Positions 21,965-24,128 of a stretch of 64,000 nt of DNA are shown here, piece by piece. The notes beneath the pieces are model-generated. The model had not been told where the DNA came from, searched no databases, and worked only from the letters and a program-made list of their open reading frames with translations. The stretch comes from an uncultured Alphaproteobacteria bacterium (lineage in GTDB: Bacteria > Pseudomonadota > Alphaproteobacteria > SP197), in the NCBI GenBank assembly GCA_958295695.1, contig OY282363.1, positions 1,864,225-1,928,224 of the forward strand, read 5' to 3'. The position numbers and the translations under genes are program-made. The first letter of the stretch is position 1, and every line of letters starts with the position of its first letter.

Positions 21965-23011
21965 TCACGGCGATATCCGGCCGTCCACGGCCCGCAAGCC
22001 GAGAAAATGTGCGATCCGTGTCACGATCCGTCGGTGCGGCGACACCCGGTCCACGTCCGGTGGATCGTCGCAAAGCGGATCGTCGCCCTCTTCGGCCAGA
22101 ATCGCCGCCCCTCGCGGCTTGCAGGGCGAAAGCGCCGAGAAGTGGGCCGCCGGGGCCACGATCTCCACGTCGGCCTTGGGAAGATGCGCCACGAACCCGC
22201 TTCCCGTTTTATTGAAATCGGTCGCCGGAAGCCGGGTCTCGCCGACGCCGAGGCCAATCAACAGCACCTTGTCGACAAGATCGCGCGCGTGCGCTGCTCC
22301 GAGGCCGTAGGTCAGCGCCGGGTCGATCGCGGCCACGGCTCGGATACGATCGTCCTTGCGGCCGGCATTCCAGTCCTCTGCCGAGTACTCCCGGAAATCG
22401 ACCCCTCGTCGGGTCAGGTCGGCGCAATGATACGGCGACGCGGGCGCGGTTTCGCAATGGGTTGCATAGCCCCCGAGATCGGCGCGCAGACCGCCCATGG
22501 CTAGCGCCGTCCAGCCGCCGTAGGAAAATCCAACAGCGTAGATCCGGGAAAGGTCGGCGTGGGCGGCAAGGTCCGGCCGGCCGGCGAGATAGTCGAGAGC
22601 TACCTGAAGATCCCACACGCGCGTCCAGTGCTTCAGACCCTCCCGAAGGTCGAAATCCCCCGCCGAGCTGCCGGCATGGTTGACCGAAACGACCAAGGCG
22701 CCCGCCTCGGCCAAACCGGCGGTCAGCCAACCGAGCGTGTCGATGTTGCCGCCGAGACCATGACTGGCCACGATCACCGGAAAGGGCCCGTCCGCTATCC
22801 GGGCGCCGTCCAGAACCTCGGTGCCGTGAAAGACGGGGTTTTCACCGTGGAGCACCGTCCGGCCGCCGCCCGCGGACGGGTACCAGAGGGCGCCGGACAT
22901 CTCACGTCCGTGATGCTCCGCGGGGATGATGAGAGCCCGATATCCCGCGGGCTCCGCGGCGGCGGTCTGGACGACCGGAAGGAGGAACGCGACGGCCAAC
23001 AAGTGTTTCAT
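21965..23011 (-). CDS. secreted alpha/beta hydrolase, dienelactone-hydrolase/PAF-acetylhydrolase-like
   Basis: A 348-residue periplasmic or exported serine hydrolase. Signal peptide residues 1-19 end at TAAA. SHGLGG (83-88) forms the oxyanion region, the nucleophile elbow is GFSYGG (161-166, Ser163), and the late histidine is in APAAHFSAL. Two or more Cys in the C-terminal half could form a disulfide. The fold resembles predicted dienelactone hydrolases and bacterial PAF-acetylhydrolase homologues; the substrate is unknown. I chose the ATG at 23011 because the signal peptide begins there. It diverges from an AraC-type regulator gene and may be its target. Confidence 0.85.
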   Translation of the reverse strand: MKHLLAVAFLLPVVQTAAAEPAGYRALIIPAEHHGREMSGALWYPSAGGGRTVLHGENPVFHGTEVLDGARIADGPFPVIVASHGLGGNIDTLGWLTAGLAEAGALVVSVNHAGSSAGDFDLREGLKHWTRVWDLQVALDYLAGRPDLAAHADLSRIYAVGFSYGGWTALAMGGLRADLGGYATHCETAPASPYHCADLTRRGVDFREYSAEDWNAGRKDDRIRAVAAIDPALTYGLGAAHARDLVDKVLLIGLGVGETRLPATDFNKTGSGFVAHLPKADVEIVAPAAHFSALSPCKPRGAAILAEEGDDPLCDDPPDVDRVSPHRRIVTRIAHFLGLRAVDGRISP

Positions 23012-23049
23012 CGTCTTTCTCCCGATGCTGGTCGCACCGGGATAGGGCT

Positions 23050-23107
23050 CGAACGAACAAACATCGTCCTCGAACCGGTTTGAGGTCGTTCGCAATCCGG
23101 TTTTGGG
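23050..23107. promoter_or_regulatory. candidate operator between the divergent hydrolase and AraC-type genes
   Basis: The 112-base divergent gap has three patterns. One is a near-perfect 18-bp palindrome CCTCGAACCGGTTTGAGG (23068-23085, one mismatched pair). The second is a flanking inverted pair CGAACGA (23050-23056) and TCGTTCG (23086-23092). The third is a direct repeat CCGGTTTGAGG (23075-23085) and CCGGTTTTGGG (23097-23107), offset by 22 bp. Direct repeats about two helical turns apart are the usual binding pattern of AraC-family regulators. Confidence 0.5.
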
Positions 23108-23123
23108 TCACGACAGGGATACC

Positions 23124-24128
23124 ATGCTTCTCAGCCTGCCCCTGCCCCTGATGTCCGCCCTCGTGCTGGGCTTTCTGCTGGCGGGTCTGCTGCTGCGTCG
23201 CGACCGGCCCGGTTTCTTCGCCGCGCTCGTGGGCGCTTGCGCCATTCAGGCGGTGGTGATCTCGCTCGCACACCACTACGAGATGGCCGTCTTCAGGTCC
23301 CTGCAGCCCATCACGGCCTCGACGATCCCCCCGCTCGCCTGGGCGGCGCTTCAATTCAGCGCCGTGCGACAACCCCGCCTGCCGCACGATCTGGTCCATC
23401 TCGCAGGACCTGTCCTGGCGCTGATGGCGTCCCTGTTCCTGCCGGCGCTGCTCGACGGTCTGCTTCCAGCACTCTTCCTAGGCTACGGCGCGACAATTCT
23501 CCGGGCCGCATGGCGCGGACCCGACGACCTGCCGCGCCTGCCTTTCGAGACAGGCGACACACCTGGGCGCGTCTGGAAGATCATTGCGCTGTCGCTCATG
23601 ATGTCGGCTATCGCCGACGCGCTGATCGCGGTCGCGTTGATCGGAGGCTGGCAGGGCTGGAAACCGTGGATCATCACCCTGTCGTCCTCTCTCGGGCTCC
23701 TGACGGTCGGTGGTCTGGTCCTCGTCCGAAGCCCCGGACCGGACGAACGGGATCCAACCTCGAAGGCTCTCCCGATCCTTCACGACCTAGAGGCGGACAA
23801 AGATCTGGTGGTGCGGCTCGACACACTCCTCGAGACCCGGAAGCTGTATCTCGATCCCGATCTGACGCTCACCCGCCTTGCGCGCGCCCTGCGGGTTCCG
23901 ATCAAGCGTCTTTCCGCCGCGATCAACCGCGGCGCCGGCGTCAATGTCTCCCGGTATGTCAATGGCTACAGGATTCGCGAGGCTTGCCGTATCCTGGAAG
24001 GAGGAGCGAGCGTGACCGAAGCGATGCTGGCGTCCGGCTTCAACACCAAGAGCAACTTCAACCGCGAGTTCCTGCGTGTGACGGGCAAGACGCCCACGGC
24101 ATGGCGCGACGCGCTTGCCACGGAGTAG
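23124..24128 (+). CDS. membrane-anchored AraC-family transcriptional regulator
   Basis: The N-terminal 200 residues contain about six hydrophobic segments with no known ligand domain. The C-terminal 100 residues are an AraC/XylS-type pair of helix-turn-helix units (LTLTRLARALRVPIKRLSAAI, and SVTEAMLASGFNTKSNFNREF before TGKTPTAWR). Such proteins sense a membrane or envelope signal and bind DNA at the inner face. I start at the ATG at 23124 with AGGGA upstream; a TTG at 23103 would add seven residues. It diverges from the secreted hydrolase and probably controls it and itself. Confidence 0.87.
   Translation: MLLSLPLPLMSALVLGFLLAGLLLRRDRPGFFAALVGACAIQAVVISLAHHYEMAVFRSLQPITASTIPPLAWAALQFSAVRQPRLPHDLVHLAGPVLALMASLFLPALLDGLLPALFLGYGATILRAAWRGPDDLPRLPFETGDTPGRVWKIIALSLMMSAIADALIAVALIGGWQGWKPWIITLSSSLGLLTVGGLVLVRSPGPDERDPTSKALPILHDLEADKDLVVRLDTLLETRKLYLDPDLTLTRLARALRVPIKRLSAAINRGAGVNVSRYVNGYRIREACRILEGGASVTEAMLASGFNTKSNFNREFLRVTGKTPTAWRDALATE

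Follow-up and report, generated by a model that had tools for sequence, protein, structure and literature searches.

A conserved operator-like element between the genes of a predicted seven-span AraC-type regulator and an exported hydrolase

In the 64,000-nucleotide stretch of DNA analysed here (the window), the genes of a membrane-bound AraC-type regulator and an exported hydrolase diverge from a short gap filled with repeats, which an earlier note had read as an operator shared by the two genes. The locus raises the question of whether these repeats are a regulatory site and, if so, which protein they serve and which gene they control. The genes and the gap are the following:

21965 to 23011, minus strand: exported serine alpha/beta-hydrolase P0002, with a signal peptide recognised by eye (MKHLLAVAFLLPVVQTAAA)
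23012 to 23123: intergenic gap of 112 bp between the divergent hydrolase (minus strand) and regulator (plus strand) genes
23124 to 24128, plus strand: membrane AraC-type regulator P0001, 334 aa, matching Pfam HTH_18 (PF12833) with 62.5 bits against a cut-off of 33.6
23124 to 23738, plus strand: seven predicted transmembrane helices of the regulator (residues 7-200), N-out and C-in by loop charge
23787 to 24125, plus strand: AraC-type double-HTH domain of the regulator (residues 222-334)

The gap contains three repeats:

23068 to 23085: 18-bp palindrome with the halves CCTCGAACC and GGTTTGAGG, symmetric at 16 of 18 positions
23064 to 23085 and 23086 to 23107: direct repeat with an offset of 22 bp, identical at 16 of 22 positions
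23050 to 23056 (CGAACGA) and 23086 to 23092 (TCGTTCG), no strand assigned: outer inverted pair, not conserved

The symmetry of the palindrome extends outward to 20 of the 24 positions from 23065 to 23088. To evaluate chance as the source of these repeats, the 112-bp gap was shuffled 2000 times with dinucleotides preserved. A palindrome with at least 16 of 18 symmetric positions appeared in 27 shuffles and a direct repeat with at least 16 of 22 identities (offset 15-30) in 3, while the two never appeared jointly. The repeats of the window are thus real and beyond chance, and the decisive evidence for this is their conservation in orthologous gaps.

In the aligned orthologous gaps, the conserved block is an element of about 47 bp with the consensus [AG]CG[TA]CCTnnAACCGGTTTnAGGTCG-n5-AACCGGTTTTnGGaCTA. 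In the window it takes this form:

23064 to 23111, plus strand: operator-like element found by profile match, 48 bp here and 47 bp in most orthologues
23065 to 23088, no strand assigned: unit 1, a 24-bp palindrome with the halves CGTCCTCGAACC and GGTTTGAGGTCG, centred between 23076 and 23077 (element positions 2-25)
23094 to 23110, plus strand: unit 2, a second core AATCCGGTTTT with GGGTCA, repeating the right-hand portion of unit 1 in direct orientation

Unit 2 repeats the CCGG core and the right arm of unit 1, and its own left arm is weak. The best core spacing was 21 bp in 67 of the 77 elements, 22 bp in 8 (the window, L039, L040, L059, L082, L101, L109, and L114) and 20 bp in 2, the spacings of L082, L057, and L079 being taken from weakly matching cores. 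The element of the window is 48 bp long because its cores are 22, not 21, bp apart. The offset of 22 bp claimed earlier for the direct repeat is therefore correct for the window, but 21 bp is the usual value in the family. The second inverted pair, also claimed as part of the operator, is present in the window but not conserved: its left arm falls outside the conserved block, and the gaps of L039 and L040, the nearest two orthologues, do not contain it. For these reasons the pair is probably a product of chance, and it was dropped as a part of the operator.

To measure conservation, loci were fetched via the regulator with one genome per species, and 80 of the 216 encoding a relative were kept. 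They come from Silicimonas, Stappia, Rhodobacter, Nitratireductor, Roseibium, Pseudooceanicola, Martelella, Thalassospira, and Sulfitobacter, among others. Relatives were also found in Billgrantia and Bisbaumannia, which we take to be halomonads and thus outside the alphaproteobacteria, and the element thereby occurs in Rhodobacterales, Rhizobiales, Thalassospira, and two halomonads. A divergent hydrolase homologue was present in 77 of the 80 loci. With the forward strand scanned, unit 1 was found in 78 (more than 10 bits, within the 500 bp that precede the regulator), and hydrolase and unit 1 occurred together in 76 loci; a coding stretch of equal length, used as a control, had unit 1 in 0 of 80. 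The 38 regulators compared are just 42-70% identical to that of the window, and the element is nonetheless conserved. The aligned sequences are akin to each other, and the counts are accordingly not numbers of independent events. These results confirmed the prediction that the repeats should recur in orthologous gaps, whose failure would have spoken against an operator; the near-perfect 18-bp palindrome is among the repeats that do recur, and an operator shared by the membrane regulator and the exported hydrolase is supported by the loci that hold both element and pair. As for accidental repeats in a GC-rich gap, the window does have 26 centres with palindromes of at least 16/18, so that a palindrome alone is not rare. 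This conservation, together with the joint occurrence of palindrome and direct repeat in none of the shuffles, refutes that explanation, whose probability we regard as negligible.

The element was also scored with a matrix, which was trained on the same sequences that it scored. From 91 gaps, the duplicates L002, L021, L022, L023, L025, and L038 were removed, as were L076 and L080, which had no usable gap, giving 83 gaps (L009 and L108 are still the same sequence). Scores above 15 bits were obtained in 77 of them, and the best of 830 shuffles reached -14.3. The gaps below 15 bits were L031, L087, L066, L074, L069, and L034. L087 was nonetheless matched by the profile described below (E 1.1e-8), and L034 had no element by profile. 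L034 and L013 have variant palindromes only, to which the matrix is blind. Unit 2 is missing in L066, L074, and L076, and the element of L069 is degraded.

Some of these variants were inspected individually. In L074 (3650-3675), compared with its relative L046 (3628-3674), one 21-bp repeat period is missing and a single fused unit remains, which looks like a natural deletion variant. The regulator-side gaps of L046, L051, and L074 are 344-424 bp long, enlarged by an insert with inverted repeats that looks like a small mobile element or a REP-like one. L034 (1443-1468), the gap of a relative with 31% identity, has a different palindrome, GTCCTAGA...TCTAGGAC, which suggests that the operator sequence drifted together with the regulator.

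The conservation is confined to the element. Its columns carry up to 1.8 bits, and the 60 columns of the left flank reach a maximum of 0.59 and are mostly below 0.3. Since the flank is nearly uninformative, common descent alone cannot account for the conserved block. Across the 65 aligned elements, C2, C5, C6, C13, G15, G21, and G22 are invariant. By chance, the two middle columns of the unit-2 core would be expected to be complementary in 42.6 of 64 elements; they are so in 52 (CC/GG changing to CG/CG). This was the one pair among 26 mirrored column pairs clearly above chance complementarity; no covariation is visible in unit 1 because it is too invariant. The repeats might also work at the RNA level, forming a hairpin or attenuator within a leader transcript, since the palindrome could pair and the element could be partly transcribed. 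Such a function is very improbable, because the palindrome is loopless with a CCGG core that is symmetric through its centre, the invariant positions show conservation of sequence beyond pairing, no T run follows the palindrome in the window, and the element precedes the hydrolase whether the genes are divergent, in tandem, or tail to tail.

To which of the two genes does the element belong? Rearranged pairs were informative, as in most of those examined the element was upstream of the hydrolase. In G048, G176, and G273, the regulator lies 23-33 kb away without an element (L026-L028), while the hydrolase has one (L010-L012). The genes of L017 and L029 are arranged tail to tail and those of L019 in tandem, each with the element upstream of the hydrolase, and the same holds for L018, a paralogue apart from the regulator, and L016, where the contig ends. 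Upstream of the separated regulators (L026-L028, L029, and L032), no such palindrome was found. The hydrolases L007, L015, and L020 of G126 and G065 have no element, and neither genome has a regulator match. G007 has a hydrolase with the element (L004) and no regulator match; its contig ends about 200 bp past the hydrolase start, so that an assembly break may explain the absence. In a genome that has the regulator, the hydrolase paralogue L014 lacks the element, and L083 has neither a hydrolase homologue nor the element.

The element could instead be mainly a promoter element of the regulator gene, serving autoregulation only, with the hydrolase as a bystander. L045 and L086 are in keeping with this, as they retain the element beside the regulator where no hydrolase homologue was found; the element then also matters to the regulator, or the hydrolase losses are recent. 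The right edge of the element is moreover close to the regulator ATG. But the separated pairs keep the element at the hydrolase and not at the regulator, and the distance to the hydrolase ATG is narrow, which makes autoregulation alone an unlikely account. In L045 (2307-5487), another gene occupies the hydrolase position, unit 2 is degraded, and element and regulator remain; by eye, the replacement gene looks like a beta-ketoacyl-ACP synthase, and a FabA-like gene lies beyond the regulator. These results show a conserved element, present in a single copy, that goes with this gene pair and most of all with the hydrolase. Our reading is that the putative operator acts on both genes, with the hydrolase as its main target.

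The copy number per genome was determined with a profile (R1) built from 63 orthologous elements with the window left out; its E-values are rough. In the window genome, R1 matched the element with 36.8 bits (E 9.7e-9), and the next separate place was a partial match of 13.9 bits (E 0.145). Among 32 further genomes reached via the named loci, 30 had exactly one full copy (45 or more of the 47 positions), always in this gap, and the remaining two (L066 and L076) had unit 1 only, likewise in the gap. No second full copy was found by profile in the window genome or the 32 others, and a wider regulon was therefore dropped. The switch had earlier been called self-contained, a description borne out by the single full copy in this gap in 30 of the 32 genomes. 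In a class sample of 385 genomes, full-length matches at E <1e-7 occurred only at the gap of G000, G224, and G279. Some profile match at E up to 0.1 was present in 106 of the 385; apart from the full-length ones, these were mostly partial matches of 13-22 bits, which were taken collectively for chance. The profile is blind to diverged elements and missed those of G048, G176, and G273 in this sample, which the matrix found. Elsewhere, the profile gave a weak match in G407 (C13:643244, E 7e-4, covering positions 13-36), and the 32-genome scan had eight places at E 0.005-0.01.

There was one clear extra site, in Thalassospira (G279/G423, C4:1108526; L018:2601-2626), in front of a paralogous hydrolase gene located apart from the regulator. 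It is a near-perfect unit-1 palindrome without a second unit, and Thalassospira thus has a probable two-gene regulon as judged from these sites.

A more global transcription factor might bind the element and control this pair incidentally. The AraC-type regulator is tied to the element by co-occurrence only, hydrolases apart from the regulator carry the element (L018 and L010-L012), and G007 has it without a regulator match at its contig end. A single full copy per genome is nevertheless unlike the pattern of a global regulator, and G126 and G065, which have the hydrolase, lack both the regulator match and the element. We consider a global factor quite unlikely.

The adjacent regulator is thus the favoured binding protein. 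It belongs to the AraC/XylS family, with structural matches to AraC-type domains at Z 12-15, and it has the layout of a membrane-bound one-component regulator, that is, a predicted transmembrane N-terminal part fused to an AraC domain. HTH_18 and HTH_AraC were the only Pfam matches of the window regulator at E up to 0.1; all 39 orthologues matched HTH_18, with nothing beyond these two families at E up to 0.01. The sensor had been described as a six-span membrane domain, and this has to be corrected, as seven helices are predicted. The structure model has a pLDDT of 88, with the predicted membrane helices mostly above 90. Lys+Arg averaged 2.0-2.6 in loops 1, 3, 5, and 7 of the 39 orthologues, compared with at most 0.3 in the other four; the positive loops indicate an N-out, C-in topology, and loop 7, the linker, is also acidic. 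The Pfam scans of the window regulator and the 39 orthologues revealed no 7TMR-DISM domain, and Foldseek gave the seven-helix part, outside the HTH, no significant match (the best GPCR had E 0.79). The seven-helix bundle (residues 1-205) was superposed on GPCR structures with Z up to 13.8 over 201 residues at an rmsd of 3.6, a level that is ambiguous for helical bundles.

One regulator match is present in the window genome. The sequence GFNTKSNFNREF is identical in 39 of 39 aligned regulators. Six diverged regulators carry GFQ instead, and four of the six are paired with ATCnnGAT cores, a hint, from few and related lineages, that HTH and core co-evolve. Three regulators are exceptions: L029 and L031 have GFQ without a full ATCnnGAT, and L104 has GFN with ATCGCGAT.

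The hydrolase has its nucleophile S163 in a GFSxGG motif, and H290 and the cysteines 186, 196, 297, and 314 are invariant in 33 sequences. From this alignment (A4), L041 was left out for a stop codon in the translated stretch, and L055, L056, L064, L075, L078, L079, L095, L104, and L112 were omitted as a precaution; L009, L010, L016, and L018 were added. The AF2 model has a pLDDT of 92, and the nearest solved folds are a ferulic acid esterase (5yal) and the Lp-PLA2/PAF acetylhydrolase (3d59), which it resembles in predicted fold and in the nucleophile region, whereas identity is just 14-20% in the structural alignments with TM-scores of 0.55-0.58. The window hydrolase stayed below the cut-offs of PAF-AH isoform II (PF03403; 19.6 bits vs 20) and of the BHET hydrolase BdeA (NF051441; 24.5 bits vs 520).

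The element is arranged like AraC-type sites: a site is repeated at a distance of about two turns of the helix, ahead of a divergently transcribed target. In 42 of 75 loci, 55-60 nt separate the left edge of the element from the hydrolase ATG, and its right edge is at most 50 nt from the regulator ATG in 70 of 75, with 12-13 bp in the window. In 9 of the 75 orthologues, the right edge is 10 nt from the regulator ATG and no ribosome-binding site is seen there; this combination suggests that those nine regulator transcripts are leaderless, with a -10 at the terminal TA of the element. The 77 aligned flanks yielded no convincing -10 consensus for a hydrolase promoter; the one sign there was a weak GGCAA, some 19-23 nt away from the element on the hydrolase side.

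Taken as a whole, the sequence data make it likely that the element is a dedicated operator of the adjacent seven-span AraC-type regulator, which would activate the hydrolase and probably repress its own gene. The regulator would bind from the inner membrane as a dimer, or as two dimers, its C-terminal double HTH contacting both the palindrome and, two turns further along the same face of the DNA, the second core. This dimer geometry is assumed from the precedent of AraC, in which the I1/I2 spacing is 21 bp. With its signal bound, the regulator would activate the hydrolase in class-II style, because the left edge lies where an activator overlapping the -35 would sit. Since little space separates the right edge from the regulator ATG, the bound protein would block the regulator's own promoter and probably cause autorepression. 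We infer activation of the hydrolase with autorepression as the simplest model, as in AraC. The signal read by the seven-span domain would be lipophilic or come from the envelope; the exported esterase might supply it as a substrate or product, and no partner protein would be involved.

E. coli AraC likewise has a double HTH, a divergent promoter region, and two sites about 21 bp apart, and target activation with autorepression is likely here too. Unlike AraC with its soluble sugar-binding domain, the present regulator has a seven-span membrane sensor, and unit 1 is a full palindrome rather than an asymmetric half-site only. In Saccharophagus degradans 2-40, 16 of 31 AraC-type regulators are described as membrane-bound, 13 of the 16 being paralogues; several lie near degradative enzymes, and they were proposed to detect extracellular polysaccharide (PMC2386152). 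The likeness is an AraC-type HTH on a membrane protein coded near a degradative enzyme. Where S. degradans has many regulators with cellulose-degrading neighbours, and the consulted part of that article gives no operator, the present system has one regulator, an ester-hydrolase partner, and an operator-like element of about 47 bp (PMC2386152). In Caulobacter, the four-span LytTR protein HigX targets the promoter of higBA, the genes beside it, and its authors present it as the first member of its class to have been characterised from alphaproteobacteria (PMC13384398). Like HigX and BcrR, the present protein is an inner-membrane-anchored one-component regulator without an evident periplasmic domain; those two have four-span membrane domains, with LytTR in HigX, whereas here seven spans are joined to an AraC domain (PMC13384398). 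No paper on this regulator family or operator was recognised among the matches listed from the open-licence PMC literature. The type of system is thus known, and the present one appears new in its putative operator, in the restriction of that operator to a single gene pair, and in having seven spans in the sensor.

A bolder and rather doubtful extension is that a GPCR-like seven-helix receptor, N-out and C-in and with an AraC tail, reads a lipid-like ligand and, through one dedicated composite operator per genome, controls one exported esterase that makes or destroys this ligand, which would be a widespread feedback loop across the envelope. To our knowledge, membrane-embedded one-component regulators are common, and few have a known operator, target, and signal. 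The predicted operator described here can be delimited almost to the single base, is present once in each genome, and has one obvious target, so that the signal of the seven-span factor could be searched for with one reporter. The locus would also offer a clean case for how a membrane-tethered DNA-binding domain locates its sole site.
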